A stretch of 37,784 nucleotides of DNA from a virus. This document shows positions 4,800 to 37,600 of the stretch, piece by piece; position 1 is the stretch's first letter; the number at the start of each line of letters is the position of its first letter. The DNA is taken from the IMG/VR virus record IMGVR_UViG_3300044730_001220, positions 1 to 37,784 of that record. One strand, 5' to 3'. The notes beneath the pieces are model-generated. The model ran no database searches. It saw nothing but the letters and a program-made list of their open reading frames with translations, and was not told where the DNA came from. The position numbers and the translations under genes are program-made.

Positions 4800-4823
4800 T
4801 GCTAGGAACCCGACCGCGCCGCG

Positions 4824-4881
4824 CCGCCCACACCGGGCGGAATAGGGCCGACACTCACCGCACCCGCGGGCGTGTCGGCCC
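4824..4881 (+). other. Paired hairpins between sheath and tube genes
   Basis: Two stems fill the 102-base gap. Bases 4824-4829 pair with 4835-4840 (CCGCCC/GGGCGG), and 4845-4854 pair perfectly with 4872-4881 (10 bp). No T run follows. Such a structure could tune the ratio of sheath to tube transcripts or mark an RNA processing site. The pairing is directly visible; the role is inferred. Confidence 0.5.
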
Positions 4882-4901
4882 GCGCTATTTCGGGAGGCTC
4901 C

Positions 4902-5333: not shown

Positions 5334-5387
5334 CAAGGCCCGCACGTCCCACACGCAATCGGCGGGAATCCCGCCACGAGGTAGCCA

Positions 5388-5747: not shown

Positions 5748-5968
5748 ACCTCGCCACACTGGCGTGCGCGATGGGTCGTGAAACGCCCGCAGAACGACTC
5801 AGTTCCATGTGGAGGCTGGTCGCGTTCTGCGGGCGGTACGGACACCAGGACGCGGCGACCCTGCTGCAAATGACCACCGCCGACTTGGTGGCGTTTGCGA
5901 AGGCACTCGGCAAGCTGATGGGCGAGGAAAAGGACAGCCTGCACGAACGGGCGGTCACTGGGGGCTGA
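5388..5968 (+). CDS. Tail assembly chaperone, -1 frameshift fusion form
   Basis: The predicted product joins 5388-5720 to 5720-5968, giving 193 residues: 111 codons in frame 0, then 82 in the -1 frame. After the shift the reading frame is open across the short-form stop and runs into the sequence MGRETPAERLSSMWRLV and on to a TGA just before the tape measure start. The -1 extension is helical and could be read separately from ATG 5771, but that ATG has no convincing ribosome site. This gpG/gpGT-like arrangement is widespread in long-tailed phages. The shift itself is predicted from the heptamer, not measured. Confidence 0.72.
5694..5720 (+). promoter_or_regulatory. -1 programmed frameshift signal (SD-like stimulator plus T TTT TTG)
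   Basis: The heptamer T TTT TTG at 5714-5720 is in the correct register (GAT TTT TTG in frame 0), so both tRNAs can re-pair on TTT after slipping back one base. A perfect Shine-Dalgarno-like AAGGAGG at 5694-5700 lies 13 bases upstream. Upstream SD-like elements at about this distance are known to stimulate -1 shifting in E. coli dnaX. No start codon for a separate gene would use this SD productively, which supports a stimulator role. Confidence 0.75.
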
Positions 5969-5969
5969 A

Positions 5970-13059: not shown

Positions 13060-14174
13060 TGCCGACGATCCCCTGCCCGGTCGAGTCGCTGACCCAATCC
13101 GACCTGCTGGACGTGGTGCAGCGGGTGCTCCCCCCGGAGTACCTGGGGCCGATGCTCCCTCCCGCCTCGGGTGCGGGCTGGGAGGTGTTTCAGTCGCAGG
13201 CCGCGCAAGAGGCACGCGCCTCGCAGGGTGTCGAGCACCTGGGGTGCGGGTTGTTCGTGCTGACTGCTCCCGACGGGGCCTCGGCCACGGGCACTGTCAC
13301 CCTGTCACGTCCGACCGCAACGGCGGGTGCGCTGACCGTCCTCGCGGGGTCGCTGTTCGCTGGCCCGGGCGGGCGCGTGTACGTCGTATCGTCCAGCGTG
13401 GCGATGGGCGCGCTCGCCCTGACCGTGACCGTTCCCGTGGTCGCGGCGGCGCAGGGCTACGAATACAACCTGCAAGCGGGGCTGGTGCAGCAGGTGATCC
13501 GACTCGACACCGACCCGGTGTTTGCGGACCCAACGCTCACCATCTCCAGCAGCATAGCGATGTCGGGCGGGGTGTTCCCCTACCTCGACGCCCTCGGGGC
13601 TGACCGAGGTGTCGCGCGTCGCTCGGGGGAGTCTGCGGACGCCTACCGTGCGCGCCTGCGGCAGCTCCCCGATACGGTATCCCCTGCTGCCATTGAGCGG
13701 TTCCTCGAAAGCTACTGGAACACACGCTTTCCCGCGTACCCGGCCAGTATGGTCGAGGCGTGGGAGGCGTGGCAGACGTGCGCGGACGCCCCCGACGTGT
13801 CGGTGGGCGCGTACAACGCGACCGACGCCCTCTGCTACGACGACCTGCGGCCCGAGCCGCCCCTGCGTGGGCGGTATCTGACCGAGGAGGAGGCTGCGGG
13901 GGCGTTCACGATCCTGCTGCCGAATCTGCCCGCCGTGTCCGACGAGGCCCTGTGCTACGACGCCCCCGAAACCTCGGTGGCGACTCTGGCGACACCCGCA
14001 GGACACCGCGCCATGACCGCCTACGACCTGCCCGACTCGACCGCGGTGATTCCGTGGCAGGGTGCTCCAGACGGGGACGATCTAGGGTGGTCGGGCGCAT
14101 ACGCGGCGTTCTGGGCCGCACTCACCGAAATCAAGCCCGCCGGGGTCGTCGTGGACTTCTGGCTCGTGGGGTAA
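13059..14174 (+). CDS. Second baseplate wedge / gp48-like tail protein
   Basis: The product is 371 residues, immediately after the J-like gene, the slot of Mu gp48 or P2 gpI, whose products link wedges to fibres. The middle (residues 80-175) repeats a J-like beta pattern (GSLFAGPGGRVYVVSSSV, then a strand and AAAQGYEYNLQAG), followed by the helix ADAYRARLRQLPDTVSP (about 200-216). The C-terminal half is richer in Tyr, Asp and Pro and has no recognised family. It may be a J/gpI chimera. The next gene begins three bases after the stop. Confidence 0.55.
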   Translation: MPTIPCPVESLTQSDLLDVVQRVLPPEYLGPMLPPASGAGWEVFQSQAAQEARASQGVEHLGCGLFVLTAPDGASATGTVTLSRPTATAGALTVLAGSLFAGPGGRVYVVSSSVAMGALALTVTVPVVAAAQGYEYNLQAGLVQQVIRLDTDPVFADPTLTISSSIAMSGGVFPYLDALGADRGVARRSGESADAYRARLRQLPDTVSPAAIERFLESYWNTRFPAYPASMVEAWEAWQTCADAPDVSVGAYNATDALCYDDLRPEPPLRGRYLTEEEAAGAFTILLPNLPAVSDEALCYDAPETSVATLATPAGHRAMTAYDLPDSTAVIPWQGAPDGDDLGWSGAYAAFWAALTEIKPAGVVVDFWLVG

Positions 14175-22954: not shown

Positions 22955-23237
22955 GCCCGACGACGGCTACCGCCCCGCCCCGCAGGTCGTGGTGCGGACG
23001 GAGCGGTGCAAACTGCCTCTGCCGCTGGAGCAGCAGGGGTGGCGCGTGGTGCCGACACGAGACGGGTGCCCGCCACAGTTCGCGCTTTGCCTCGACGCTC
23101 CTGCGGGGGCGCGGCTGGCGGCGCGGCTGGAGGCGTCTGTGTGGTGGTCACGCGAGGTGTGGGCAGCTTGCGGTGAGGGGACTTGGCCGCTGGACGCGCC
23201 TGCGGTGCATCTGGAGCCGTCGCCACCCAAGCCGTGA
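22878..23237 (+). CDS. Outer-membrane lipoprotein spanin (Rz1-like)
   Basis: The product is 119 residues in a different frame from the inner spanin, starting at ATG 22878 within it. It opens with a basic N-region (MCKRLPAKP), a hydrophobic segment (TLLLFALTSTA) and Cys21, a slightly degenerate lipobox. The mature part has four further Cys and Pro-rich stretches, for example CPPQFALCLDAPAGARLAA. That is consistent with an outer-membrane lipoprotein that touches the inner spanin, and with a Gram-negative host. From 22951 to 23237 it overlaps the antisense nuclease gene by 287 bases. Confidence 0.72.
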   Translation: MCKRLPAKPTLLLFALTSTACWRAARPDDGYRPAPQVVVRTERCKLPLPLEQQGWRVVPTRDGCPPQFALCLDAPAGARLAARLEASVWWSREVWAACGEGTWPLDAPAVHLEPSPPKP

Positions 23238-23562
23238 GCATCTCCAGCCACACGTCGAGGTGGAGCATCACCACAGGCTCGGCGTGATCGTCGCGGCACA
23301 CCGCGACCGGATGCGCCCGCGCACCAGACCGACCGATTGCAGCGACCGCCTGCGCGAGAGCCGCGCGGGCGTTCGTTTTTTTGCCCCGCTTGCACTCCAG
23401 CCAGATCGGCACCCCGGGCGACAGCACATCGGGTTCCTCTGCGCTGCCCCCACGCGGCTGCGCGAGGCCCCGCTTGGCGTCGATCCCCAGACGCGCGCGC
23501 AGCAGGCTGGCGACCTCCCGTTCCCATCCGTGCCCCTTGACCCTGCTCGCTCTACCGCCCAC
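22951..23562 (-). CDS. PD-(D/E)XK nuclease, Holliday-junction-resolvase-like
   Basis: The product is 203 residues, starting at GTG 23562 behind AGGGGAGG. Residues 1-110 show the nuclease core: GHGWEREVASLLRARLGIDA, with Glu16 (or Glu14), then EEPDVLSPGVPIWLECKRG giving Asp45, Glu56 and Lys58, the PD-x(n)-ExK metal site. Arrangement and size are close to Hjc-like or VRR-type phage nucleases, so it may resolve recombination or packaging junctions. Residues after about 115 are Pro/Ala/Arg-rich, probably disordered, and are encoded opposite the outer spanin. It is the last gene of a leftward operon. Confidence 0.7.
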   Translation of the reverse strand: MGGRASRVKGHGWEREVASLLRARLGIDAKRGLAQPRGGSAEEPDVLSPGVPIWLECKRGKKTNARAALAQAVAAIGRSGARAHPVAVCRDDHAEPVVMLHLDVWLEMLTAWVATAPDAPQARPAAKSPHRKLPTPRVTTTQTPPAAPPAAPPQERRGKARTVAGTRLVSAPRATPAAPAAEAVCTAPSAPRPAGRGGSRRRA

Positions 23563-23671
23563 GGTCGATCCTCCCCTCGCGGCGCACGCGCCACCACAGA
23601 CGCGCGCGAAACACCGCGAGCGTGACCTCCCACCGCGCGCAGCTCCAGGCGTACCGCAGCCGGGTCAACAC
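23552..23671 (-). CDS. Very small basic/aromatic protein
   Basis: A 39-residue frame starts at GTG 23671, overlapping the stop of the upstream leftward gene, and ends inside the start of the nuclease gene. Its sequence is Trp/Arg-rich with a probable amphipathic helix (WEVTLAVFRARLWWRVRREG, residues 14-33). Overlaps at both ends are what real coupled genes look like in this phage, and the codon third positions are G/C-rich. No function can be assigned. It could be a leader whose translation couples the nuclease. Confidence 0.5.
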   Translation of the reverse strand: MLTRLRYAWSCARWEVTLAVFRARLWWRVRREGRIDRGR

Positions 23672-23925
23672 AACGCAGCCCCGGGCACCGGGATCGGGGC
23701 CGCAGGCGTGATCGGCGGTGAGAACTCCAACCGCAGCTCAGGGCACCCAGGCACCCGCGGCAGGGCGTACCCAGACGACGCTGCCCGGTACAGCGCCCCC
23801 GCGAGTGTGTCCTCCCGATACGTCCCCTCGGCCCACGTCGGGCGCAGTCGCCGCACCTGCTCGACCGTCCCTGCGTACCACCAGCCGTTCGTCAGCTGCA
23901 CACTCGCTCCGCGTTCCGCCAGCAT
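23665..23925 (-). CDS. Unknown small protein, first gene of leftward cassette
   Basis: This 86-residue protein starts at ATG 23925 with AGGAGG eight to nine bases upstream on the minus strand. It opens MLAERGASVQLTNGWWYAGTV, has a compact central part rich in Arg, Trp and Tyr, and ends in a Pro/Ala run. It is not recognised. A copy of the conserved bipartite motif lies just upstream in the correct orientation. The gene therefore probably heads an operon with the 39-residue protein and the nuclease. Confidence 0.6.
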   Translation of the reverse strand: MLAERGASVQLTNGWWYAGTVEQVRRLRPTWAEGTYREDTLAGALYRAASSGYALPRVPGCPELRLEFSPPITPAAPIPVPGAALC

Positions 23926-23946
23926 TTCGCACCTCCTGTGCGGGGT

Positions 23947-23972
23947 GTATTGCCCCCGTGCGCTGTAGGTTT
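23947..23972 (-). promoter_or_regulatory. Bipartite phage promoter-like motif, site A
   Basis: On the minus strand AAACC (23972-23968) is followed after 10 bases by GGGGGCAATAC (23957-23947). The ATG of the leftward cassette lies 21 bases further on. This is the only leftward copy, and it serves the only clear leftward operon, which argues for an orientation-specific promoter rather than a random repeat. A short stem (CGGGG/CCCCG) could form around it in RNA, but most other copies lack this. Confidence 0.62.
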
Positions 23973-24048
23973 GTCATCCCTGCCCGCTCTGGCAACCCCC
24001 CGCGAGTGCGTTTGTCGAGAGGGGTGCTGCTGTCCGTGAAGATAGTTG

Positions 24049-24077
24049 TTGCACCGTGTGGCACCCTATGGCATAAG
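24049..24077 (+). promoter_or_regulatory. Possible host-type (sigma-70) promoter of the rightward early region
   Basis: TTGCAC at 24049-24054 and CATAAG at 24072-24077 are separated by exactly 17 bases. They match the -35 and -10 consensus only partly (three and four of six). Transcription would start close to 24084, exactly where the duplicated leader begins. The 229-base divergent gap 23926-24154 contains no gene. In a G+C-rich genome such a pairing is noteworthy but not proof. Confidence 0.4.
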
Positions 24078-24083
24078 TCCTTC

Positions 24084-24133
24084 CACCAAGGGGGCGTGCA
24101 TGGTGCAGCCCCTACAAAAGCAAGACCGCCCCC
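24084..24133 (+). repeat. Leader repeat, copy 1 (50 bp)
   Basis: This 50-base stretch is identical, base for base, to 24471-24520. It contains a stem (24089-24093 with 24109-24113, plus TGCA/TGCA around a TGG loop). It is followed by a second stem, GCCCCC/GGGGGC (24128-24133 with 24136-24141), just before the ribosome site of the 102-residue gene. It looks like a duplicated structured 5' leader. Confidence 0.85.
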
Positions 24134-24154
24134 GAGGGGGCAGGGAGATTCCCG

Positions 24155-24463
24155 ATGTCCATCACGATCCGTATCCACCTCGACCTTGGCCTGCTGGACG
24201 GCATGGCCGACGACAGCGACGCTGGCAAGATCGACGCCCGCGCGTCTCTGCGCGCCTACGCAGACGAGCTGGACGCCCGCCTGTGCCGCACCTACCCGAA
24301 CGCCGCGGAGATCAACGTGACCTACTCGACCCGCACTGGTGGCAACGAATCTCGGCAGGTGCTCGACGCGGAACTCAACGCCGACGAGACGCAGTACGAG
24401 TTGATCGACATGCTGATGTACGCGCTGCACGCCGACACCGACAAGTGGCTGCGTTTCGAGTAG
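24155..24463 (+). CDS. Tandem paralogue 1, unknown acidic protein
   Basis: This 102-residue protein starts at ATG 24155 after GGGAGATTCCCG. It opens MSITIRIHLDLGLLDGM, has a helix with LRAYADELDARLCRTYP (about residues 31-47), then a strand-turn TYSTRTGGNESRQVL and an acidic helix to the end. It is clearly related to the next gene (matching opening, AYxDxLxARLxxxYP and RTGG). No known domain is recognised. Its place as the first rightward gene after a divergent promoter region suggests an early host-takeover protein. Confidence 0.65.
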   Translation: MSITIRIHLDLGLLDGMADDSDAGKIDARASLRAYADELDARLCRTYPNAAEINVTYSTRTGGNESRQVLDAELNADETQYELIDMLMYALHADTDKWLRFE

Positions 24464-25188: not shown

Positions 25189-25767
25189 ATGGACAAGCTC
25201 ACGCAGGACCGCATGATTCTCGCCGCCACGAAGGTCGGCAGGAAGTTGGCTCGGCAGTACCAAATCACGGACGCCCGCGATTGCACGCAGACAGGAATCC
25301 TCGCGGTGCTGGAGGCCGCGGACAAATACGACCCGGCCAAAGGCACCCCCGAGACGTATGCGGTGTCCGTGGCGTACCCTGCCGTCGCCCGGTCGATCAC
25401 CAAATCGCGCCTGCCGGTGTCCGTGCGGTGGCGCGACCCCGAGCAGTATCGGGGGATCAAGGGTATCGCTCGCGCCGACGAGCAGGAGTCTCTGGCGGTG
25501 CCCGCAGAGACGCGCACCCCCGAGGCGCAGCTCGACCGCGACTACGCTGGCGCGGAGGCGGCTGCGCTGCTGGAGGGGCTGGTCGGAGACGACCCGGTGC
25601 GCCGTGCGGTTGTGTCGGTGCTGCTGGAGGACTGCGGACGCGCGGAGGCCCAAGCGCACGCAGGGGTCAACTACACGACGTTCGGAGAGGTTGAGAGGGC
25701 GCTGCGGCGGCGGGTGCGTTTCGACCCTCGGGCGCGCGATTGCTGGGATCGACTCGCGGGCAACTAG
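25189..25767 (+). CDS. Phage-encoded sigma-70-like factor
   Basis: The product is 192 residues. ATG 25189 is preceded by only a weak ribosome site (CAGGTGACC). Residues about 8-75 follow sigma region 2: a helix, then DCTQTGILAVLEAADKYD and PAKGTPETYA, the usual core-binding and -10-reading pattern, ending in ITKSRLPVSVR. Residues about 123-180 look like region 4: a helix with LLEGLVGDDPVRRAVV, then AEAQAHAGVNYTTF and a basic helix ERALRRRVR. Region 3 is short. It may direct host RNA polymerase to the bipartite motif found in this genome; that link is inference. It could instead be a sigma-like regulator without promoter activity. Confidence 0.7.
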   Translation: MDKLTQDRMILAATKVGRKLARQYQITDARDCTQTGILAVLEAADKYDPAKGTPETYAVSVAYPAVARSITKSRLPVSVRWRDPEQYRGIKGIARADEQESLAVPAETRTPEAQLDRDYAGAEAAALLEGLVGDDPVRRAVVSVLLEDCGRAEAQAHAGVNYTTFGEVERALRRRVRFDPRARDCWDRLAGN

Positions 25768-25787: not shown

Positions 25788-26000
25788 ATGGCTGGAATCC
25801 ATCAAGACAACATCATGCGCGCCAAAGGCTATCTCACCATCTCCGACGTGGAGAAAATGACCCAGGCCAACCGCTCGACCATCTATCGGTGGGCCAAGCG
25901 CGGCCTACTGACCACGACCGCGCTCGGGCGCGCGGTGTATTTCGACGCGGCGAGCGTGCGCGACCTGCTCGCCGCAGTCCCGCAGGAGGGGTCGTGCTGA
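25788..26000 (+). CDS. Small helix-turn-helix DNA-binding protein (excisionase/MerR-like)
   Basis: The product is 70 residues from ATG 25788, behind AAAGGAGCAAACACA. Residues about 15-60 form the winged HTH of the excisionase/MerR type: GYLTISDVEKMTQANRSTIY, then RWAKRGLL, a wing (TTTALGRAVYF) and DAASVRDLL. It probably binds DNA as a regulator or origin factor; no integrase is nearby, so an excision role is unlikely. The stop overlaps the helicase start by seven bases, which suggests coupling. Confidence 0.72.
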   Translation: MAGIHQDNIMRAKGYLTISDVEKMTQANRSTIYRWAKRGLLTTTALGRAVYFDAASVRDLLAAVPQEGSC

Positions 26001-27361
26001 TCGAGGTTCACACCGTCGAGGCCCGACTCGCCCGCGCAGACGAGCACGAGAAAGAATGGCTGCGCGACTATCTGACGTTCACCACCAAGGGATTTGCGGG
26101 GCGTGATGGCGGCGTCGTTCGGATGCTAAACGTACTGACTGACCGATTCCCCGCCGGATTCGTGCCCCTGGTGCGCGCGGCAGCGGCGAAAGACGGGCGG
26201 CAGGTAGACATTCTCGACCTGCGCCCACCGGGGATCGCACCGACCCCCGGGGCAGACGTGGAGTGGCTGCGCGACTACCAGCGCGAGGCCCTGCGTGTCG
26301 CGTTGGAACGCGAGCGGGGCATCCTGTGGCTTCCGACCGGAGCTGGGAAAACTGAGCTGGCGTGTGGACTTGCGCGAAGCGTGCCCGGGACATGGCTTTT
26401 CCTCGTCCACCGCCTGTCCCTGCTGGGGCAGACAATGGCAAGGTTTGAGTCTCGACTCGGGGAGGCTGCGGGCACTGTGGACGGTGACTCTGGGACGTGG
26501 CGGCGGTTCACCGTTGCGACGTTCCAGACCCTCGCTCGGCGGCTCAAGACCGACCCGGCCCTGCGCGCCAAGGTCGCCAGCGTGGACGGTATCATCGTGG
26601 ACGAGGCCCACACCCTGCCCGCCGACTCGTTCTACGGGGTCACGCTGGCCTGCACGAACGCCCGGTATCGAATCGGGCTGTCGGGAACGCCCCTTGCGCG
26701 CGGGGACAGGCGCAGCGTCTACACAATCGGGGCACTCGGCCCGGTGATTCACCGAATCCGCCCCGAGGTGCTGATCGAGCGCGGGGTGCTGTCTCGCCCC
26801 AAAATCCACCTCGCGGACGTGCTGCACGACCCCCCGGAGGCCGTGACCTGGCAGGGTGTCTACGCGGAGTGCGTGGTGCGCTCCCGTCGGCGCAACCTCG
26901 CTGTGCTGTCTGCGATCCACCAATCACCGCGACCGTGCCTGGTGTTCGTCTCCGCTGTGGAGCACGGGCACGAGCTGGTGCGGCTGATGGGCAAGCAGGG
27001 GATCACCGCGGAGTTCACCTGGGGCGACGACTCGGAGGAGCAGCGGCAGGCGTCGATTCGGCGGCTTGTGCGCGGCGACATCGAGGTGCTGGTGTGCTCT
27101 GTGATCTTCCAGGAGGGGGTCGATATTCCCGCACTGCGGAGTGTGGTAATCGCGGCGGGCGGGGCCTCGGGTATCGCGGCAATCCAGCGTGTCGGACGCG
27201 GGATGCGAATGGCCGAGGGCAAAGACGAGTTCGTGGTGTGGGACGTGTCAGATAGGGGGCATCGCTGGCTGGAGCGGCACACTCGCGCCAGACGGAAAGC
27301 CTACGAGGCGGAAGGGTACGAAATCGTGTCGCAGCAAATGGACCTGCGGGAGCTGAAATGA
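25994..27361 (+). CDS. Superfamily 2 helicase, UvsW-like
   Basis: The product is 455 residues from GTG 25994 behind GGAGGGGTC; the longer upstream frame runs through the sigma and HTH genes and is ignored. A 90-residue N-terminal domain precedes the helicase core. Motifs seen are Q-like DYQREAL, Walker A PTGAGKTE (Lys119), DEAH at 203-206, SGTP near 231, and motif VI with QRVGRGMR near 400. In T4, UvsW remodels branched DNA and helps switch from origin- to recombination-dependent replication. The close RecA, SSB and clamp genes fit that role. It overlaps the clamp start by four bases. Confidence 0.8.
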   Translation: MLIEVHTVEARLARADEHEKEWLRDYLTFTTKGFAGRDGGVVRMLNVLTDRFPAGFVPLVRAAAAKDGRQVDILDLRPPGIAPTPGADVEWLRDYQREALRVALERERGILWLPTGAGKTELACGLARSVPGTWLFLVHRLSLLGQTMARFESRLGEAAGTVDGDSGTWRRFTVATFQTLARRLKTDPALRAKVASVDGIIVDEAHTLPADSFYGVTLACTNARYRIGLSGTPLARGDRRSVYTIGALGPVIHRIRPEVLIERGVLSRPKIHLADVLHDPPEAVTWQGVYAECVVRSRRRNLAVLSAIHQSPRPCLVFVSAVEHGHELVRLMGKQGITAEFTWGDDSEEQRQASIRRLVRGDIEVLVCSVIFQEGVDIPALRSVVIAAGGASGIAAIQRVGRGMRMAEGKDEFVVWDVSDRGHRWLERHTRARRKAYEAEGYEIVSQQMDLRELK

Positions 27362-28455
27362 ACATCACGGTCAAGACAAGCGAGTTGAAGGAAGCGGTGG
27401 GTGCGGCAGCGGGAATCGTGCTGCCCAAAATCGAAACGGCGGCAACCCTGCTGGTGCGCGCGGGGTCGCTGTTCGTCATCGTGGGGCGCGAAACCGCCCA
27501 ATACGAGGCGAAGATTCCTACCCACGACGCCACCAAGGACGCCGTGGTCACGGTGTCTGTGCAGCGGCTCGCGGGCGTGCTCGGTGCGCTCGCAGACGAC
27601 GAGGTGACCCTCGCCACCAAGGGCAAGCGGCTGGAGCTGCGGTCGGGTGCGGTGTCCGTGGCGATTCCCACGACTGACGCCGAGGGCGCGCAGCGAGTCG
27701 AGGTCGGCACGCCCCCGGAGACGGCAGCCCGCTGGCTCCAGCTGGCCCCGGCGCTCGCCTCGGTGGCACACGCAATCAGCAAGGACGACACGCGCTACTA
27801 CCTGAACGGAATCAACGTGGGGGTCACCACAGGCGGGTCGGCAGTCGTCGCCACAGACGGACACCGGCTCGCAGCGGTGCGTGCCTCCGGGGACGCCTAC
27901 GCGCTCGGCCCCGCAGCCGTCACGCTGCCAGATTGGGCGGTCAAGCTGCTGTCCCGCATCGGTCGAGACTCAGGCGTCGTCTGGGTGCAGGGGGACACCG
28001 TGCGGTATCACGACCCTCGGTGCGCCGTTATCGCGCCGCTGGTGGACGGGGCGTTCCCGGATTGGCAGCAGGTTGTCCCAAACGATTCCTCGTTCCAGAT
28101 ACACGCGCAGGTCGATTCCGACGCGCTGCGCGAGGCAATCGAGCAGGCCCGCACCTGCGGCGTCACCTCAATCAAAACCACCTGGACCGTCGATTCCGTC
28201 ACGTTGGAATCGCACACCGAGGACGCTGATTTCACCACGTCAATCGCATTGGCGGGTGCGGATATTGGGCGCGATTTCTCCAAGGTGACAATCGCTCTCA
28301 ATCCCGAATACGTGCGCGACGCCCTGCGCGCAATCTGCGCCCGGTCGGTCGCCCAGGTGTCTATCGCGGACGCCTACTCGCCCGTGGTCGTGCGCCCCTA
28401 CCCGACGACCGAGGGCAGCAGCGCCCTCGCCGTGGTGATGCCGATGCGCCTCTGA
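27358..28455 (+). CDS. dnaN: DNA polymerase sliding clamp, DnaN-like
   Basis: This 365-residue protein has the length of bacterial beta clamps. Visible marks are the N-terminal strand/helix MNITVKTSELKEAVGAAAG, the central VVATDGHRLAAVRA (about residues 162-175) and DGAFPDWQQVVPN (about 230-242). The C-terminal ALAVVMPMRL is the standard end of beta clamps that forms part of the peptide-binding pocket. It should encircle DNA and tether the phage polymerase. Phages with family A polymerases only sometimes carry a bacterial-type clamp, so this is notable. A terminator-like hairpin follows. Confidence 0.85.
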   Translation: MNITVKTSELKEAVGAAAGIVLPKIETAATLLVRAGSLFVIVGRETAQYEAKIPTHDATKDAVVTVSVQRLAGVLGALADDEVTLATKGKRLELRSGAVSVAIPTTDAEGAQRVEVGTPPETAARWLQLAPALASVAHAISKDDTRYYLNGINVGVTTGGSAVVATDGHRLAAVRASGDAYALGPAAVTLPDWAVKLLSRIGRDSGVVWVQGDTVRYHDPRCAVIAPLVDGAFPDWQQVVPNDSSFQIHAQVDSDALREAIEQARTCGVTSIKTTWTVDSVTLESHTEDADFTTSIALAGADIGRDFSKVTIALNPEYVRDALRAICARSVAQVSIADAYSPVVVRPYPTTEGSSALAVVMPMRL

Positions 28456-28481
28456 CCACCCCACCCAACCCCGCTCGACCG

Positions 28482-28512
28482 CACCCCGGCAGGCCCTGCG
28501 CCCGCCGGGGTG
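28482..28512 (+). terminator. Hairpin after the clamp gene
   Basis: Bases 28482-28490 pair perfectly with 28504-28512 (CACCCCGGC/GCCGGGGTG) around a 13-base loop. The stem begins 26 bases after the clamp stop and is followed by TTGCGTTC, a weak T-rich tail. It probably ends or attenuates the early rightward transcript before the origin-like region. Confidence 0.55.
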
Positions 28513-28734
28513 TTGCGTTCTGTGGCGGCGGAAGGCGGGACCGCCGCTAGGGCACCTGTGGCGCGCGTTCTGCCCCCCAACCTAAGCCACCCACGAGACG
28601 AGGGGTGAACGCCGCAGGGCACCCGCCTAGCGGCCACCGTTTCGGGGGTGGCGTCGGAGGGTGCGCGGCGCTGTCGGGGTCTGCCCCCCGTGGCGTGGGC
28701 TGGCAGGGGGGGTCGCGCGTGTGCGGAGATGTGA

Positions 28735-28782
28735 ACGCGTGCGCGCGTGTACGTGTGCGCGTGCAGGCGCATGTGCGCGCGT
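28735..28782. repeat. Alternating purine-pyrimidine tract (Z-DNA-prone)
   Basis: Bases 28735-28765 (31) and 28767-28782 (16) strictly alternate purine and pyrimidine, mostly CG, GC, GT and AC steps, with one break at 28766. Such tracts readily adopt left-handed DNA under negative supercoiling. It directly adjoins the A+T-rich block, so it could act as a supercoil sink or barrier beside an unwinding site. Confidence 0.7.
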
Positions 28783-28858
28783 TCATATATTAGTATTTAT
28801 TACTACTAAACACTAAAACACCAAAACTAGGGAAACACCATTGGTGTCTAACAAAGAG
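28783..28858. other. A+T-rich block, candidate DNA-unwinding element
   Basis: From 28783 to about 28830 only roughly a quarter of bases are G or C, in a genome that is otherwise strongly G+C-rich. It contains three close AAACAC words (28808, 28816, 28833) and the odd palindrome ACACCA-T-TGGTGT at 28835-28847, which could be protein-binding sites. Its contrast with everything else in the window is the reason to suspect an origin. Confidence 0.65.
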
Positions 28859-28936
28859 CGATGGGGGGGTCGGGGGGATACGCAACACACCCCCCCAAAA
28901 GGGGGTGTGTTGCTCCCCCCGACTCCCCCCCATCGC
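28858..28936. repeat. Long interrupted inverted repeat (33 base pairs)
   Basis: Three collinear stems share one axis: 28858-28869 with 28925-28936 (12 bp), 28870-28877 with 28915-28922 (8 bp) and 28882-28894 with 28901-28913 (13 bp). Only small bulges interrupt them, and the apex is CCAAAA. One arm carries G runs of seven and six that might also form a quadruplex with other G runs. It could be a cruciform single-strand origin, a primase-loading structure or a very stable RNA. Confidence 0.8.
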
Positions 28937-29006
28937 GCGATTCTCGAATCGCGCCGCGTTGCGGCGCTCCGAGAACCGCCCCTTCTCGGGGGGCTGCGCC
29001 CCCCGA
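28937..29006. repeat. Array of four consecutive hairpins
   Basis: After the long inverted repeat come four stems: 28937-28942/28947-28952, 28951-28957/28961-28967 (7 bp, GTT loop; two bases shared with the first), 28969-28975/28983-28989 (7 bp) and 28986-28994/28998-29006 (9 bp, TGC loop). Some compete for the same bases, so they cannot all form at once. The density of structure is far above that of any other intergenic DNA here. Confidence 0.75.
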
Positions 29007-29033
29007 ACCCCCCCTGGGTTGCGAGGCGAACAG

Positions 29034-29060
29034 AAACCTCGGGAGGGGTGGGGGCAATAC
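29034..29060 (+). promoter_or_regulatory. Bipartite phage promoter-like motif, site B
   Basis: AAACC at 29034-29038, 11 bases, then GGGGGCAATAC at 29050-29060. The base after the motif is T, not A as in the other four sites. ATG 29081 of the next gene lies 20 bases downstream behind GAGGAGG. Lying at the right edge of the origin-like region, it could also give transcripts that prime replication. Confidence 0.62.
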
Positions 29061-29080
29061 TGGCTGCGAGGAGGCAGCGC

Positions 29081-29776
29081 ATGGACGCGACCGAGGGGCT
29101 TGGGGTTGGGCTGGTGGGCGGCAGCGGGGCAGCGGTGGCCCTCGCTGCGGCGTGGGACTCGCTGCCGCCGTACCCGGGGCCGAGCGTGGTGCCCCCGGTG
29201 ACGATTCCCGACCCACCGACGCTGCCTGCGGACGCTGGCGACCGGGAGTGCGCGCAGCTCCTGGTGCGGGCCTGGGTGGGCGCTTCATTCGCCCGATATG
29301 GAAAACGCATCTGGACGGGCGGGGACGTTACCGCTCGCCGCGATTATTCGACGCTGGTCAAAGCCGCTGACCTGATGCGGAAAGAGCAGATGCCGCCCGC
29401 AGCCTGGGTGGCGTTCTCAATCGACTACTGGCGCAAATACACCCCGAAAGGGTGCGACCGAGACGAGCCTCCTGCGGCCCGCTGGGTATTCGCAGGCAAA
29501 CGGCTGACCGAGCAGGCGGGGTGGTTCCGCTCGGAGTGGTGCCAATACCGCGGCGGTCGGATTCAGCTGGCAGGAGCGCACGCGGAGCTGCTGCGGAGAT
29601 ACACCCGGCTGACGGTGCTGGTGCGCCGGGGAGTGCCGACCGCCGAGGCCGTGGCAGAGACGTTCCCCCCGCCGGGGGACGACTACGAGACGCTGGCCGC
29701 ACTTGCCAGCTACGAGAACAAGCGCAAGCAGAACGCGCTCCGCGAGGCGGCAGCGCGAGGAGAATGGCTGTGGTGA
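29081..29776 (+). CDS. Unknown protein upstream of replicative helicase
   Basis: The product is 231 residues from ATG 29081, behind GAGGAGGCAGCGC and site B. An 80-codon upstream extension of the frame crosses the hairpins and is not coding. The first 50 residues are Gly/Ala/Pro-rich. The rest is helical with many Trp, Arg and Tyr residues (YGKRIWTGGDVTARRDYS near residue 70; AARWVFAGKRLTEQAGWF near 130) and ends GEWLW. Placed between origin-like DNA and the DnaB gene, it may be an origin-binding protein or helicase loader; no motif proves this. No other loader gene is visible in the window. Confidence 0.55.
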   Translation: MDATEGLGVGLVGGSGAAVALAAAWDSLPPYPGPSVVPPVTIPDPPTLPADAGDRECAQLLVRAWVGASFARYGKRIWTGGDVTARRDYSTLVKAADLMRKEQMPPAAWVAFSIDYWRKYTPKGCDRDEPPAARWVFAGKRLTEQAGWFRSEWCQYRGGRIQLAGAHAELLRRYTRLTVLVRRGVPTAEAVAETFPPPGDDYETLAALASYENKRKQNALREAAARGEWLW

Positions 29777-31122
29777 ATCGACCGAACCTCGCAATCGTGA
29801 CCCCCTCTGGTGCCTCGACCACCAAACGCCGTGACGCCTACGAGCTGGACCCCTCGTTCCTCGACGCGGTTGCCTACTTGTGCTGTGCCTCCCCCCGGTT
29901 CTGGGCGCAGATCGGGCGCGAGATCGACGCCGAGCTGGTGCCCGACGACACCGCGCGGCTGGTGATCGCCACCTGTGGGCGTCTGGCGCGCGACCTGGGG
30001 CGCGGCCCCGACTCCCCGGTGCTTGTGCTCCAGCAGATTCGCGCGGGCGTTTCGACAGGCAAAATCGCGCATAACGACCTCGTGGCTGCGTCCGAGCTGC
30101 TGGACCGTGTGGAGGACGTGGGCGTCCCCGCTGAGGACGGCGTGATTGCCATGCTCGCCCCGGTACTGCGCCGCAAAATGGAAGCCGACGCCCTCCAGCA
30201 GATGATTGAAGCCTACGGAAAGCGCGCGGACCTGACCGAGGTCATGGAGCTGGTCGCTAAATCGCAGCGACTTGGAAAGGTTGACCTCGACACGGGCACC
30301 CGCTTGGGTATGGGTTCATTTGCGGAGATTGCCAAAATCCGCCAGATGGAGCGGCTGACGACGGGAGTGATTGACCTCGATATCCCGCTCGACGGTGGCC
30401 TCGGGCGCGGTAGCCTCGGGGTGGCGGTCGGTGGCCCGGGCGACGGTAAGAGCATGTTCCTGTCGCACGTCGCAGCCGAGGCGTTGTGCCACGGCCTGCA
30501 CGTCGTCTACGCCACGCTGGAGCTGCCCGAGGCCGTCGTGCTGGGACGGCTCAAGGCCAACCTCACGGGTTGTTCCATCTCGGAGATTATGGACGGGCGA
30601 CACGACCGCGCCGCGCAACGGCTGGAGGGGATGCTCCCTTACCTGGGGGCGTTCACGACCAAGTACATGACCCCTGGTGCGACGACCGTGACAGACCTCC
30701 GCATCTGGGTCGAGCGGTGCGAGGAGGCCGCACAGCGCCCGGTTGACCTGCTGGTGGTGGACTACGCGGACAAGCTCGGCGCACCCAAGGAGCAGAACGA
30801 GTACAACGCCATGAAGATCGTCTACGAGGGCCTGCGCCATTTCGCAGTCGAGCGTGGGCTGTGGGCTTGGACCGCCTCGCAGGCTACCCGCGCCGCCGCC
30901 AAAGACCGCGCAGAAGGCTCGCGCAAACTCGACCTCAACCACATGGCCGACTCGATGCACAAGGGGCGCGTGGCTGACTTGGTTGTGTCATTGAACGCCC
31001 GCGACGAGGGGCAGCAGATGGAGTTCTACGTCGCCAAGAACCGTATCGGGCGCTCGCGTGTGACAGTCGGCCCCCTCCCCTGCGATTTCGGGACGGGGCG
31101 TATCTCCCCGGTGAACCGATGA
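29770..31122 (+). CDS. dnaB: Replicative DNA helicase, DnaB-like
   Basis: About 450 residues. GTG 29770 has GAGGAG seven bases upstream; ATG 29764 is possible but too close to it. The N-terminal 160 residues are helical, as in the DnaB collar. The RecA-like core has Walker A GGPGDGKS (Lys227), a strand VVYATLELPE typical of DnaB motif 1a, Walker B LLVVDYADKL, and the region WTASQATRAA leading to the DNA-binding loop. The end YVAKNRIGRSR carries the arginine-rich element. It should unwind the phage fork as a hexamer. It overlaps the preceding gene and the primase gene (ATGA). Confidence 0.85.
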   Translation: MVNRPNLAIVTPSGASTTKRRDAYELDPSFLDAVAYLCCASPRFWAQIGREIDAELVPDDTARLVIATCGRLARDLGRGPDSPVLVLQQIRAGVSTGKIAHNDLVAASELLDRVEDVGVPAEDGVIAMLAPVLRRKMEADALQQMIEAYGKRADLTEVMELVAKSQRLGKVDLDTGTRLGMGSFAEIAKIRQMERLTTGVIDLDIPLDGGLGRGSLGVAVGGPGDGKSMFLSHVAAEALCHGLHVVYATLELPEAVVLGRLKANLTGCSISEIMDGRHDRAAQRLEGMLPYLGAFTTKYMTPGATTVTDLRIWVERCEEAAQRPVDLLVVDYADKLGAPKEQNEYNAMKIVYEGLRHFAVERGLWAWTASQATRAAAKDRAEGSRKLDLNHMADSMHKGRVADLVVSLNARDEGQQMEFYVAKNRIGRSRVTVGPLPCDFGTGRISPVNR

Positions 31123-31991
31123 CCCGCCAACAGCGAGTCGAGGCTGCGCTGGAGCAGGCCCCCGCAGCGAACGGGCAGGGATACGCGCGCGCAAACTGCC
31201 CGTTCTGTGACGAGCGCGTGGGCAAGCGGGACCGTACCCGCTGCCTGTCGATTCACGTTCAGACCGGGTTCTACGGGTGTTTTCGCTGCGGAATCAAAGG
31301 CAAGATGCGTGGGCCGCAATATCTGGAGGTCGAGGACTTGCGGGACGCTGAGACGCCCGCAATCGCCCCGCACCAGGCGATAGCCCCGCCGGACAGCTAC
31401 GCCCCGCTGTGGCGGGAGCCGTACTCAATCGACCGGGACTATGCCCCCGCGCGGCGGTATCTGATCGACCGGGGGCTGACTCGCGCTACCGCCGCCGAGT
31501 GCCAGATTGGGGCCTGCCTGTCGGGGCGGTACGCAGGGCGGGTGATCGTCCCGGTGCTGGACGTGGAGCGCGAGACGTGGCTCGGGTTCGTCGCGCGCGA
31601 CTACACGGGACAGGCCGAGCGCAAGTACTTGTACCCAAGCGGTATGGTGAGAAACTTGTGGAACCACCGCGCTTTGCTGCAAAAGACGACCGAACCCGTC
31701 TACGTGGTCGAGGGGGTGTTCGACGCGATTGCCCACTACCCGCACGCGGTCGCGGTGCTCGGCAAACCGACCAACGAGCAGTTTTCCGCGCTGGCTGCGG
31801 CCTGTCGCCCCGTGGTTGTGGTGCTGGACGGTGACGCCTGGGAGGAGGGGTGGGCGCTGGCGATGCGCCTGCGCGTGGACGGGGCCGAGGCGGGTGCGGT
31901 TCGTCTGCCCCCCAAGATCGACCCCGACGAGGTGGACCCCTACTGGCTGTGGGAGGAGGCCCGCGCCTCCCTCGGTAAAATCCCGGCGTGA
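31119..31991 (+). CDS. dnaG: DnaG-like primase
   Basis: The product is 290 residues, short for DnaG but normal for phage primases. A zinc-binding domain has Cys27, Cys30, Cys54 and Cys57 (CPFC and CFRC). The central part resembles the RNA-polymerase fold. TOPRIM motifs follow: YVVEGVFDA with Glu198, then VVVLDGDAW with Asp237 and Asp239. There is no extra C-terminal helicase-interaction domain beyond a short helix. It makes RNA primers for the phage fork. The gene is coupled to the DnaB gene by a four-base overlap and followed by motif site C. Confidence 0.85.
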   Translation: MTRQQRVEAALEQAPAANGQGYARANCPFCDERVGKRDRTRCLSIHVQTGFYGCFRCGIKGKMRGPQYLEVEDLRDAETPAIAPHQAIAPPDSYAPLWREPYSIDRDYAPARRYLIDRGLTRATAAECQIGACLSGRYAGRVIVPVLDVERETWLGFVARDYTGQAERKYLYPSGMVRNLWNHRALLQKTTEPVYVVEGVFDAIAHYPHAVAVLGKPTNEQFSALAAACRPVVVVLDGDAWEEGWALAMRLRVDGAEAGAVRLPPKIDPDEVDPYWLWEEARASLGKIPA

Positions 31992-32040: not shown

Positions 32041-32664
32041 ATGACCCCCCTACTGATTCGATCCCTCGACATCGACGCCCCGATCCTCGGGCAGACGCGC
32101 CGCGTGACCTACGCAGACGGTGCGCTCGCCCTGCACGTCCCCTCCGACCAAATCGAACCTGTGCTGGCTCTGCTGGCGGGAGTCGCCCCCGTTGAGCGGA
32201 ACCCCTGCCGTGAAATCCCCGTGCCCACCGACATTGGCCCGCGTGGCCCTGTGGTGTCTGCGCCTGCCCCCGTCATCCCCGCAGCGTCCCCCGAGGTCGC
32301 CGCCATTGTCGCCGCAGCCTACTCACCGCCTGCTGACGACCCCGCGCTGGAGTTCCCCCCGCGTGGTGCGTCGATGGAAATGCCCGTCGCTGCGTCGCCT
32401 GTGCTGACCCCCGCCGAGATTGCCTCGGCCCCCGCGCCCCACGCTGCCGTCGGGGCGGCGACGGGCGGGGTGGCCGACGCCCTGCGCGGCGCGACCAAAC
32501 TCGCGGAGGTGGTGGCCTACCTGGTCGAGCAGCAGGGTATCCGCGAGCTGGACGCCCTCGTCGCAGAGTGCCAGCGGCTCGCCCCCGAGGTGCCCCTGTT
32601 GGGCAAAATCGCCAACCTGCCGACCCGAATCGAGCGCACCCTGTCGGTGCTGGGGCTGGCATGA
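32041..32664 (+). CDS. Unknown two-domain protein before the polymerase
   Basis: The product is 207 residues. ATG 32041 is preferred to ATG 32020 because GGGCACGGAG sits nine bases before it. Residues 1-45 form a small beta domain (LIRSLDIDAPILGQTRRVTY), 50-140 are a long Pro/Ala/Val linker, and 145-207 are helical (ALRGATKLAEVVAYLVEQQG and LIAxL-type helices). A tethered helical domain beside polymerase and primase suggests a replisome adaptor. No clamp-binding peptide is recognised. It overlaps the polymerase start by four bases. Confidence 0.55.
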   Translation: MTPLLIRSLDIDAPILGQTRRVTYADGALALHVPSDQIEPVLALLAGVAPVERNPCREIPVPTDIGPRGPVVSAPAPVIPAASPEVAAIVAAAYSPPADDPALEFPPRGASMEMPVAASPVLTPAEIASAPAPHAAVGAATGGVADALRGATKLAEVVAYLVEQQGIRELDALVAECQRLAPEVPLLGKIANLPTRIERTLSVLGLA

Positions 32665-35144
32665 CGCCTCTGCCCCTTTATACGGGGGACGTGCGGGCGG
32701 TGGTCGAGCAGACCCCCGCCCGTTCTGTCTCCAAGGACTGCTCGGCCTGCGAGCTCGCCACGACTGCGCGCACGATCTGCACCCCTGGGGACGGCCCCGA
32801 GGACGCCCCTGTGCTCGTGGTGCTACCTGGGGTGTCCGACGCTGCCGACCGCGCAGGTCACGTCGTCGCTGGCACGGTGCCCGAGTGGGTCGCGCGCACG
32901 CTCGGGGCGGGTGGGGCTGCGATCCGATACGAGGCCGCGATGCGGTGTCGAGTCGGCGGGTCGGTACCCTCGGACACGATGCTGCACGCCTGCCGCCCGT
33001 ACACCGCAGGCAGTCTGCCCGGGCGCAAGCGAATCATCGCGGTGGGGCAGGCTGCACACCGTCTACTGCTCGGTCGCGCCCTCCCGCTGACCGTGCGCCG
33101 TGGGATCGCCCTGCTGTCGGACGGCACCCCGGTCGTGATGCTGGGCGACCCCGTGACCGCGATGAAGAACAGGCTCTTGCGCGCCCGGTACGAGGACGAC
33201 CTGCGCTGGGCGCTCGCGGTCGAGGCCCCCGCAGCTCCGTGGGGGCTGGTGACGCAGGTGGTCGATACCGCTGCGGACTCACAGGCGGCGTGCGACGAGG
33301 CCCGGTCGTGGCCTTGGGTGGCCCTCGACGCGGAGTGGGCGGGGGTGATCGACGACCCCGACCACACGCTGCTGTCGATTGCGATTGGGACGCAGGGCGA
33401 CCGCTCGTTCGTGTGGGACCGAGCGGGCCTCGCAGACCCTGCCGTGGCAGAGCCGCTGCGCGCCCTGCTCCGCGACCGAGCGGTCACGGTCGTCGGGCAC
33501 AACGCGAAGGCGGATTTTCGCGCCCTGCGCGCGTGGTTGGGCGGCTGGCCCCGGGGCAAATGGACGGACACCCGGATGCTCCGCAAGGTGCAGGACGCCG
33601 AATCGTCGGGCGCGCTGGACGACCTCGCGGAGACGGTGGGGATGGGGGGCCACAAAGCGGAGGCCCGCGCTGCGCTGGATGCAGCGAAAGCCAAGATTCG
33701 CAAGGGCGCGCGCAAATCCGCGGCTGCGGACCTGTTCGCGGAGCGCAGCGATTACGGGTCGATGCCGCGCCTGTACGAGTCCCTGCCCCGAGACGTGTTG
33801 CTCAGGTACAACGCCCGAGACACCGTGGCGACCGCGCGACTGTACGTGTCCGAGCTAGCCGCGCTCGACGCCGACGACCCGGCCCTGCGATACGTGCTGG
33901 AGGGGCTGGTCGTCCCCGCCACGCTGGCGATCTGCCGTATCGAGCAGGCAGGCGTCCCCTGCGACCCGACAGGTCTTGGGGCAGTGGACGCGCTGTGGGC
34001 GGTCGAGCAGCAGCAAATCGAGGCTCGACTCGTGACTGCCAGCCCGAACCCGTGGAAACCCGGGAGTCCCCGCGACGTGGCGCGCGTGCTGTACTCGGAG
34101 TTGGGGCTGCGCTGTCCCGGCAAAACGGACAGCGGTGCCCCATCGACTGACGCCGATGCCCTGGACAAACTGAAAGGCCAGCACCCGGTCGTGGACGATT
34201 TGATTGCGTGGCGCAAAATCAGCAAGCTGCGCGGCACGTATTCACAGGGGATTGCGGAGGAGATTCGACCAGACGGCAGAATCCGCGCTTCTTTCCTGCT
34301 GGATGGGGCGCGAACAGGTCGCATGAGCTGTAACTCGCCAAACCTCCAGCAAGTCCCGCGCGGGGACACAACAAGCGGAAAAATGCTCCGCGACGTGTTT
34401 GCGGCCCGTCCCGGGTGGTCGCTGGTACAGGCCGACTACTCGCAGCTGGAGCTGCGGGTTGCGGCGGGTCTGGCGCGGGACGAGGAGATGATTGCTGTTT
34501 TCCGCTCCGGGGTGGACTACCACCTGCGGACGGCGCAGATGATCAGCAAACAGGCGTGGGGAATCGAACCCGAGGAGGTCACCAAAGTCCACCGCACCGC
34601 GACGAAAGCCGTGAACTTCGGCCTGCTGTACGGGTCAGACGACCGATCCCTTGCGGAGACACTGGGCGGCACGGTAGCCGACGCTGCCAAGGTGCGCGCC
34701 GCCGTGCTCGGGCGTTTCAAGGGGCTGGCGCAGTTCATCCAGGGGTGCTTGCGGGACGCCCGCACGACAGGCGGGGCATGGACGGTTTGGCGGGGTCGCA
34801 AAGCCCGCCGCCGCCCGCTGTGGGGAATCGCGGACCCGGACGAGTACCTGCGCGGACACTACGAGCGCGCGAGTTGGAACACCCCGATTCAAGGCACTGG
34901 CAGCGATATTTGCCTCGACGCCCTTGTCGAGATCGTGGATTGGATCGAGGCAGACGGGGTGCCCGCCGAGCTGGTGCTCCCCATCCATGACTCGCTGATG
35001 ATTCACTGCCAAGACGACGCGCTCGACGAGGTGATTTACCAAATGCGCCGCATCATGGAGAGTCGGTGGTGCGGGGACTGCCCGCTGGCCGTTGATGTGG
35101 AGGTCGGCAAATCGTGGGGCAGTCTGGAGAAGCTGAAAAAGTGA
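32661..35144 (+). CDS. polA: Family A DNA polymerase with N-terminal UDG-like Fe-S domain
   Basis: This is an 827-residue, three-part protein. Residues 20-185 resemble a family 4 uracil-DNA glycosylase: Cys27 and Cys30 (CSAC), a Pro-Gly loop at 56-57, then Cys96 and Cys111 fourteen residues apart, the spacing of the 4Fe-4S cluster. The glycosylase catalytic motifs look degraded. Residues 215-395 are a 3'-5' proofreading exonuclease (Asp223/Glu225, Asp285, Tyr383/Asp387). The polymerase has motif A DYSQLELR (Asp592), motif B with Lys649 and Phe653, and motif C IHDS (Asp777). It replicates phage DNA. ATG 32661 overlaps the previous stop. Confidence 0.85.
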   Translation: MTPLPLYTGDVRAVVEQTPARSVSKDCSACELATTARTICTPGDGPEDAPVLVVLPGVSDAADRAGHVVAGTVPEWVARTLGAGGAAIRYEAAMRCRVGGSVPSDTMLHACRPYTAGSLPGRKRIIAVGQAAHRLLLGRALPLTVRRGIALLSDGTPVVMLGDPVTAMKNRLLRARYEDDLRWALAVEAPAAPWGLVTQVVDTAADSQAACDEARSWPWVALDAEWAGVIDDPDHTLLSIAIGTQGDRSFVWDRAGLADPAVAEPLRALLRDRAVTVVGHNAKADFRALRAWLGGWPRGKWTDTRMLRKVQDAESSGALDDLAETVGMGGHKAEARAALDAAKAKIRKGARKSAAADLFAERSDYGSMPRLYESLPRDVLLRYNARDTVATARLYVSELAALDADDPALRYVLEGLVVPATLAICRIEQAGVPCDPTGLGAVDALWAVEQQQIEARLVTASPNPWKPGSPRDVARVLYSELGLRCPGKTDSGAPSTDADALDKLKGQHPVVDDLIAWRKISKLRGTYSQGIAEEIRPDGRIRASFLLDGARTGRMSCNSPNLQQVPRGDTTSGKMLRDVFAARPGWSLVQADYSQLELRVAAGLARDEEMIAVFRSGVDYHLRTAQMISKQAWGIEPEEVTKVHRTATKAVNFGLLYGSDDRSLAETLGGTVADAAKVRAAVLGRFKGLAQFIQGCLRDARTTGGAWTVWRGRKARRRPLWGIADPDEYLRGHYERASWNTPIQGTGSDICLDALVEIVDWIEADGVPAELVLPIHDSLMIHCQDDALDEVIYQMRRIMESRWCGDCPLAVDVEVGKSWGSLEKLKK

Positions 35145-35749: not shown

Positions 35750-36514
35750 ATGGGCAACCTCGCACGCTACGGATCATTCGACATTGGAGAGGCCGACAAG
35801 GCCGCAGAGCAGGTCAAGGCTGGCGGTTCCAGCGATTTCATGAAGATGAAGGTGGGGCGCAACGTCGTTCGCATTTTGCCGCCCGCTCTTGGTCAGCGCA
35901 CCCCGTTCGTCACGGTTCACCAGCATTTCATCAAGCTGCCGACCGCTGCAAAACCCGTCGTTTTCGCCTGCCCCCGGATGCACAACAATCAAGTCTGCCC
36001 TGCGTGCAACCAAGCCGACAAGTTCCGTAAGTCGGGTCGTTCCGAGGACCGCAGCGCGATGTTTGAGCTGCTGCCCAAAATGCGGTTGTTCGCCAACGTG
36101 ATTGACCGCACCGACGGTGCAGTGAAAATCCTTGGATTCGGAAAGACGATTTACGAGCAGCTGATTGCGCTGCGCCGGGACCAGGACGCCGGGGGCGACT
36201 ACACCGACCCGGAAAACGGTTTCGATATCATCATCGAGCGCACGGGAACCGGGGCGCGCGACACGGAATACCGTGTGATGCCCGCTCGTAAACAGTCCTC
36301 GATGGGCGACCTGTCGATTCTCGACGCCCTGCCCGACCTCCTGCGGTTTGCCGAGGTCAAGCCGCTGGCCGATATTGAAGCGATGCTGCGTGGTGAGGAA
36401 CCGCAGCGCCGCGACCAGGGCGGGCGCACCTACGACGCCGAGGCCCTGCCCGCCAAGCCCCGCGGTCGCAGCGTCGAGGATGACGTGTACGGCGACAACA
36501 ACGCGGGCTGGTAG
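35750..36514 (+). CDS. Single-stranded DNA binding protein, gp32-like
   Basis: This 254-residue protein has the gp32 plan. Residues 1-30 form a basic/Gly start, then a core with KVGRNVVRILPPA, aromatic strands and a zinc-type cluster CPRMHNNQVCPACNQAD (about residues 75-91). The C-terminus is acidic and disordered (SVEDDVYGDNNAGW), as in SSBs that recruit partners through their tails. It should coat single-stranded DNA at the phage fork and during recombination. The ATG follows GGAGCACAACCAC. A hairpin separates it from recA. Confidence 0.78.
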   Translation: MGNLARYGSFDIGEADKAAEQVKAGGSSDFMKMKVGRNVVRILPPALGQRTPFVTVHQHFIKLPTAAKPVVFACPRMHNNQVCPACNQADKFRKSGRSEDRSAMFELLPKMRLFANVIDRTDGAVKILGFGKTIYEQLIALRRDQDAGGDYTDPENGFDIIIERTGTGARDTEYRVMPARKQSSMGDLSILDALPDLLRFAEVKPLADIEAMLRGEEPQRRDQGGRTYDAEALPAKPRGRSVEDDVYGDNNAGW

Positions 36515-36589: not shown

Positions 36590-37600
36590 ATGGGCCGCAA
36601 AAAAGCAGACCAACCCGCTGACGTGGTGCAATCCCTGCTCGACGCAATCCGCACCGCACACGGCAAGGATTCCGCGCTCCGATTGCAGGACGGGGCACCG
36701 ACCGACGTGTCCGAGGTGATTCCCACCGGGGTCGAGCTGATCGACCGTCACCTGCTCGGCGTGGGTGGATTCCCTGTCGGACGCCTCGTGGAGCTGTACG
36801 GGGAGGAGGGGACCGGCAAATCCTCGCTGGTGTTCTCGGCAATCGCTGGTGTGCAGGCCCTCGGGGGCCTCGCGGTAATGGCGGACACCGAGCAGGCCCT
36901 CTCGACCGAGCGCGCCGAGGTGTTCGGCGTGGACCTGTCGAGGGTTATCCTGCTCCAGCCGTCGAATATCGAGGACGCGCTCAAACAGATGGAAACCACC
37001 CTCCAGGCAGTCCCCGCAGGCGTCGGCCCCGTTCTGCTGATTTGGGACTCGGTGGCTGCGACCCCAACCCGGCAGGAGGTCGAGGACGGGCTGGACAAGG
37101 GCACCGCGATGGGGGTGCGCGCGCGCGTGTTGGGCCTCGGGGTGCGCGTGCTGCTCCAGCTCGCCGTGGAGAAGCGCGCCTGTTTACTGTTCGTCAACCA
37201 GGTGCGCGAGAAGATCGGGCTGGTATTCGGGGACAAGTGGACCACCCCGGGTGGGGCCGCAATCAAGTTCGGCGCGACGATTCGCCTGCAACTGATGGGG
37301 GGTAAAGCGGTCAAAGAGGGTGACAAACATCTCGGGAAGATTGTCACGATTCGCACCACCAAGAACAAGCTCGTGCCCCCCAACCGCACCGCGCGTGTGC
37401 GTCTGGACTACGAGACGGGCTGGAACGACTGCTGGACGACGCTGGAATACGCGAAAGACGCGCAGGTTATCGGGGATCGCGAGCGCGGGGCGAAGGCCTG
37501 GGCCAAGGCGAGGCACGGCCTCGGGTGGGTAGACTCTCCCGACGCCCCGCTCCCGGGGGCACCTGTGGACGAGGGCGAAACCACGGCATCGGACGAGTAG
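36590..37600 (+). CDS. recA: RecA-family recombinase
   Basis: This 336-residue protein has the RecA core. Walker A is GEEGTGKSS (Lys77), VMADTEQALS matches the region after strand 2, VLLIWDSVAA is Walker B, and the DNA-binding loop region and LLFVNQVREKIG follow. The GDKWTTPGGAAIKF segment corresponds to loop 2 and the conserved Pro-Gly-Gly-x-Ala. The acidic tail (DEGETTASDE) is typical. It should catalyse strand exchange for repair and recombination-dependent replication. The ATG follows TAGGAGGCAAACACA. Confidence 0.88.
   Translation: MGRKKADQPADVVQSLLDAIRTAHGKDSALRLQDGAPTDVSEVIPTGVELIDRHLLGVGGFPVGRLVELYGEEGTGKSSLVFSAIAGVQALGGLAVMADTEQALSTERAEVFGVDLSRVILLQPSNIEDALKQMETTLQAVPAGVGPVLLIWDSVAATPTRQEVEDGLDKGTAMGVRARVLGLGVRVLLQLAVEKRACLLFVNQVREKIGLVFGDKWTTPGGAAIKFGATIRLQLMGGKAVKEGDKHLGKIVTIRTTKNKLVPPNRTARVRLDYETGWNDCWTTLEYAKDAQVIGDRERGAKAWAKARHGLGWVDSPDAPLPGAPVDEGETTASDE

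Follow-up and report, generated by a model that had tools for sequence, protein, structure and literature searches.

The gap between the sliding clamp gene and the helicase-primase-polymerase operon of an uncultured phage is a genuine non-coding region that is maintained in structure and stands out as exceptional within its genome. We tentatively interpret positions 28735-29062 as the main early-replication origin of the phage, of the R-loop or DNA unwinding element (DUE) type, combined with the promoter and leader of that operon. "Origin" is thus a plausible label for the locus, and much of this anatomy is also explained by a role as transcription leader.

A gap within the replication genes of an uncultured phage

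The window (the whole stretch of DNA analysed, 37,784 nt) is taken from the record of an uncultured virus. Two relatives are present in IMG/VR (records IMGVR_UViG_3300042471_001244 and 3300043395_002741): G001, which is 99.5% identical to the window over the shared part, and G002, at ~84% nucleotide identity the sole diverged relative that reaches the locus. Both extend over about 34 kb of further genome, which brings the distinct genome to about 72 kb. With tail sheath and baseplate wedge families and a T4-like terminase large subunit, this is a contractile-tailed phage. No DNA similarity was detected to 50,697 annotated phages and 72,556 plasmids, and Rfam and tRNA searches gave no matches. 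Scans of viral contigs with the clamp, SF2 helicase and DnaB, as single proteins and as alignments, yielded nothing beyond the two near relatives and one unrelated clamp, while a PolA alignment scan returned 18 distant polymerases whose neighbours were not the same.

The gap lies inside a replisome cluster, with the SF2 helicase and clamp before it and the 231-aa protein, DnaB, primase, PolA, gp32-like SSB and RecA after it (Table 1), a position that speaks for an origin. All flanking genes run rightward on one strand. The rest of the genome, as seen in the relatives, encodes SbcC- and SbcD-like (gp46/47-type) proteins and ribonucleotide reductase; the gene for the latter (L009:842-2500) runs opposite to the prevailing direction. 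Together these genes make up a nearly complete phage replisome plus a recombination set in the style of T4. A second sigma-70 region 2-like protein was found as a weak match at L008:18809-19633, and with two sigma-70-like proteins the promoters of this lineage may depart from the host consensus. The 231-aa neighbour had no credible Pfam or PHROG match, and its structure model was of low confidence (pLDDT 42), too poor to serve as a search query; its position suggests a possible initiator or loader.

Other parts of the genome also contain unusual features. In G001 (L008/L009), a TET-associated glycosyltransferase (TAGT), a methyltransferase-like protein and two weak ParB-like matches are clustered (e.g., L009:7102-8004, 4518-6200, 7991-8782 and 6338-7003), which suggests hypermodified DNA in this lineage. 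A repeat of roughly 70-110 bp precedes small genes (window 24034-24182, L008:16279-16409, L009:3759-3828, L011:17916-18003 and L012:3764-3918) and is possibly a leader or promoter shared by the phage and its relatives. The longest stretch of the window without a called gene (22955-24154, 1.2 kb) ends in this repeat.

Table 1. Features of the gap and the genes around it (window positions, except where L009 is given)
Feature	Position	Strand	Remarks
Sigma-70-like protein (region 2-like)	25189-25767	rightward	
HTH protein	25788-26000	rightward	
SF2 helicase	25994-27361	rightward	
DnaN-like sliding clamp	27358-28455	+	
Non-coding gap between clamp and hyp/DnaB/primase/PolA operon	28456-29080		625 bp; second longest gap in window
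Hairpin just 3' of clamp stop	28482-28512	+	-14 kcal/mol as DNA
Z-DNA-prone alternating purine-pyrimidine tract	28735-28782		31 + 16 nt; longest in window
A+T-rich block, candidate DNA unwinding element and/or promoter region	28784-28857		30% G+C
AAACAC words	28808, 28816, 28833	+	3 of 8 forward copies in window
ACACCAA/TTGGTGT inverted repeat	28818-28824, 28841-28847		
Palindrome ACACCATTGGTGT	28835-28847		13 nt
Giant hairpin 1	28858-28936		34 pairs with small bulges, loop central; -43.6 kcal/mol as DNA, z=-11.3
Hairpin 2	28938-28978		outer stem pairs in G002 despite 3 two-sided changes
Hairpin 3, TCGGGGGG-CTGCG-CCCCCCGA, with C-rich tail	28986-29014		identical in G002
Shine-Dalgarno GAGGAGG of 231-aa gene	29068-29074	+	GAGGAGG also in G002
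231-aa protein without known family	29081-29776	+	overlaps dnaB
DnaB-like replicative helicase	29764-31122	+	
TOPRIM primase	31119-31991	+	
Family A DNA polymerase (PolA)	32661-35144	+	
gp32-like SSB	35750-36514	rightward	
RecA/UvsX	36590-37600	rightward	
SbcC- and SbcD-like palindrome nucleases	L009:8824-10440 and 12240-13331		giant palindrome in same phage

Three extremes of the sequence coincide in the gap

The locus combines the easiest melting, the longest Z-prone run and the strongest hairpin of the sequence in hand. In the Z-prone tract, alternation is unbroken for 31 nt (28735-28765) and a further 16 nt follow at 28767-28782; over 47 nt, 44 of the 46 steps alternate. Sixty dinucleotide shuffles of the whole window produced no run longer than 23 and at most 39 alternating steps per 47 nt, and in the two relatives runs reach 21 at most.

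The adjoining block has a G+C content of 24% in the 50 bp at 28780 and of 29% in the 72 bp at 28782. Elsewhere in the ~72 kb of the window, G001 and G002, no 50-bp stretch is lower than 40%, and no other gap in these ~72 kb has a comparable A+T-rich block. The block is also the window's least stable 60-mer (z=6.3). The AAACAC words in it are irregularly spaced (8 and 17 bp); together with the inverted repeat and the palindrome (28808-28847) they are candidate protein-binding half-sites.

Beyond the block lie the hairpins. The 100-nt stretch over hairpin 1 was the most stable of 4,928 from the window and its relatives. The stem-loop of hairpin 3 itself spans 28986-29006, and weaker pairing between its C-tail and a G-run extends to about 29054. 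None of hairpins 1-3 has a U-run; each is followed by G/C-rich sequence and absent from the terminator scan.

These elements agree with the original prediction, which had listed 47 nearly continuous alternating bases, a block of about 25 percent G+C, AAACAC words with a 13-base palindrome, a 33-bp inverted repeat and further hairpins in a region that separates clamp from helicase/primase genes and codes for nothing recognisable. Only its promoter-like site B was not recovered, as a sigma-70 scan found no promoter in the A+T-rich block, where a lone TATATT occurs at 28786. The phage's own sigma-like factors may differ in specificity.

The coding potential of the gap was assessed from substitutions between the window and G002, in the part of the gap that G002 reaches. 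By codon position these number 10/12/5 in the stretch before 29081, against 13/17/76 within the gene. The lack of third-position bias upstream of 29081 supports both the non-coding status of the gap and the ATG start at 29081. The same counts rule out that the open frame through the hairpins is an N-terminal extension of the 231-aa gene.

Hairpin conservation and contig ends

The G002 contig starts inside hairpin 1 and the G001 contig ends at window position 29064, and therefore only the hairpin half of the locus can be compared. Within that half, the hairpin block is conserved as structure in G002, contrary to what would have refuted the prediction. All 34 nt of hairpin 3 with its tail are the same in G002, whereas the flanks on either side are 70-85% identical. 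In G002 the outer helix of hairpin 2, nine pairs of which one is a mismatched A.C in the window, stays paired through one G-U change and three two-sided changes. This pairing is lost when the partner strand is slid by one to three columns. In a shuffle control, a weak one with two sequences compared, 77 of 500 shuffles scored equally. Template switching that corrects quasi-palindromes can also give the appearance of covariation without selection. For these reasons, we regard the changes in hairpin 2 as moderate evidence of compensation. Hairpin 1 is partly present in the G002 contig, where its fold is weaker.

By rough arithmetic, two contig ends would fall within ~330 bp of a 72-kb genome by chance about 1 in 10,000 times, which makes it most likely that both of the relatives' assemblies broke because of the hairpins. 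Strong hairpins can thus cut phage assemblies, with two of the three contigs of this lineage stopping at the locus. The coinciding ends, together with the large palindrome and the SbcC/SbcD-like genes, would also fit a genome end or processing site, namely a telomere-like palindrome that a protelomerase resolves, or a site of packaging or recombination at which the SbcCD-like nuclease of the phage cuts. We consider this very improbable. The window reads straight through the locus, a search for the protelomerase family PF16684 found no match in the three, possibly incomplete, records, and the T4-like terminase large subunit leads us to expect headful packaging, in which no end is fixed. The breaks are explained if assembly failed at a very strong G/C hairpin.

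Resemblance of hairpin 3 to a repeat in a metagenome-assembled genome

Of about 85,000 species genomes scanned, a single one, a MAG titled Proteobacteria (L015 in G004, JAJPHT010000020.1), contains an exact match to the 28-nt core of hairpin 3. In this MAG the core belongs to a composite G/C palindromic repeat with at least 65 near copies. These are often arranged in inverted pairs, and the GCGCTGCGGCGC hairpin stands just upstream of some of them, as in the phage. Among 390 genomes drawn from the MAG's phylum, no other one has the motif. A gene for archaeal RNA polymerase subunit H indicates that the MAG is probably a mislabelled archaeon; a search for archaeal SSU rRNA in it was empty. Its archaeal RNA polymerase subunit, at odds with its title, also ruled it out as the phage host.

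The shared 28-nt piece, with its many copies, inverted pairs and adjoining hairpin, raises the alternative that a mobile or dispersed REP/BIME-like palindromic element acquired from a host makes up the hairpin half, with the A+T-rich block as a separate promoter. This seems unlikely, as the hairpins occur in both phages only at the same locus and are thus old there. Hairpin 3 is found once in each phage, with no dispersed copies elsewhere, and a search for it as a widespread viral element found it in no other viral contig, even with degenerate positions allowed. Because the phage clamp and PolA are of bacterial type and the MAG has an archaeal RNA polymerase, the likeness is probably convergence of G/C palindromes, and transfer from a host is less likely.

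Replication origin or control region

The prediction of a replication origin is favoured by the three compositional extremes, the surrounding replisome cluster and the conservation of the hairpins. Several signals sought alongside it did not appear. The cumulative GC skew, proposed as a check, has no turn at 28.8 kb, and GC3 skew is -0.01 on both sides of the locus. We found no DnaA box with up to one mismatch in 28456-29081, no IHF site at the locus, no regular iteron array among the AAACAC words and no initiator gene of a recognised family. The phage T4 origins oriF and oriG depend on a promoter and an A+T-rich unwinding element that lie within about 100 bp (PMC3016281), and the T4-like protein families encoded here match such a system and favour the R-loop or DUE type. 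The T4 origins share no common motif, and the missing motifs therefore do not exclude an origin here.

The main rival to a combined origin and promoter/leader is a pure leader, in which the gap serves only transcription and translation control. The clamp operon would end in a terminator, and the A+T-rich block with its palindromic half-sites would act as promoter/operator. Ahead of the helicase operon, a long structured 5' leader of three G/C hairpins would set mRNA stability or attenuation. Such a regulatory reading fits the position, the hairpins and the co-directional genes nearly as well as an origin. The hairpin after the clamp stop codon is a possible terminator without a U-run, the palindrome could be an operator, and the Shine-Dalgarno sequence and start codon lie just past hairpins retained as structure. 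The unchanged skew agrees with it, and unusual promoters are to be expected in a phage with two sigma-70-like proteins. Against this stand the empty sigma-70 scan, the missing U-runs after the hairpins and an A+T-rich block that exceeds the needs of a promoter and is unmatched by other gaps. We judge pure control to be possible, if on balance improbable.

From the sequence features and their extremeness, the non-coding status, the hairpin conservation and the gene context, we infer how the favoured origin might work. Rightward transcription would start at or in the A+T-rich block, perhaps through a phage sigma-like factor, and negative supercoiling would open the Z-prone tract and the block. 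The transcript might then stay hybridised as an R-loop, or an initiator might bind the AACACC half-sites, and the opened strand would let the phage DnaB and primase load. The adjacent G/C hairpins could fold on the exposed strand or in RNA, and so fix the place of loading or elongation. Later replication would be driven by recombination through the RecA/UvsX-like, SbcCD-like and UvsW-like proteins. A stricter version, in which the Z-DNA tract, A+T-rich block and structure-conserved hairpins form one composite origin, with the hairpins as a loading or stop signal for the phage-encoded DnaB/primase in a so far unstudied phage lineage, appears doubtful. If the locus is an origin, it offers a compact site for studying how a phage that has both a clamp/PolA/DnaB replisome and T4-like recombination proteins begins to copy its G+C-rich genome, and an example of Z-DNA, unwinding and hairpin elements side by side.

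Comparison with known systems

REP/BIME palindromic repeats (PMC2817692) are likewise G/C-rich palindromes, and one of the phage hairpins resembles a dispersed repeat in one MAG, but the phage hairpins occupy a single locus with no copies elsewhere. Iteron origins of the T4 oriE or lambda type also place short repeated words by an A+T-rich block near replication genes, as AAACAC does here; these three copies are unevenly spaced, however, and have no recognisable initiator gene beside them. Compared with structured 5' leaders and terminators of GC-rich phages, the locus shares hairpins between co-directional genes with a Shine-Dalgarno sequence directly after them, whereas hairpin 1 is far longer and more stable than any other hairpin in these genomes and has no U-tract. 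T4 oriF and oriG combine a promoter with an A+T-rich DUE and are primed by an R-loop. Here the promoter is only a candidate, the block is bordered by a Z-prone tract and giant hairpins, and a DnaN-type clamp and family A polymerase replace the T4 proteins in a G+C-rich genome. Still, both have a short A+T-rich unwinding block of tens of bp, and the phage carries a gp32-like SSB, a RecA/UvsX-like recombinase, an SF2 helicase and SbcCD-like proteins, as T4 does.
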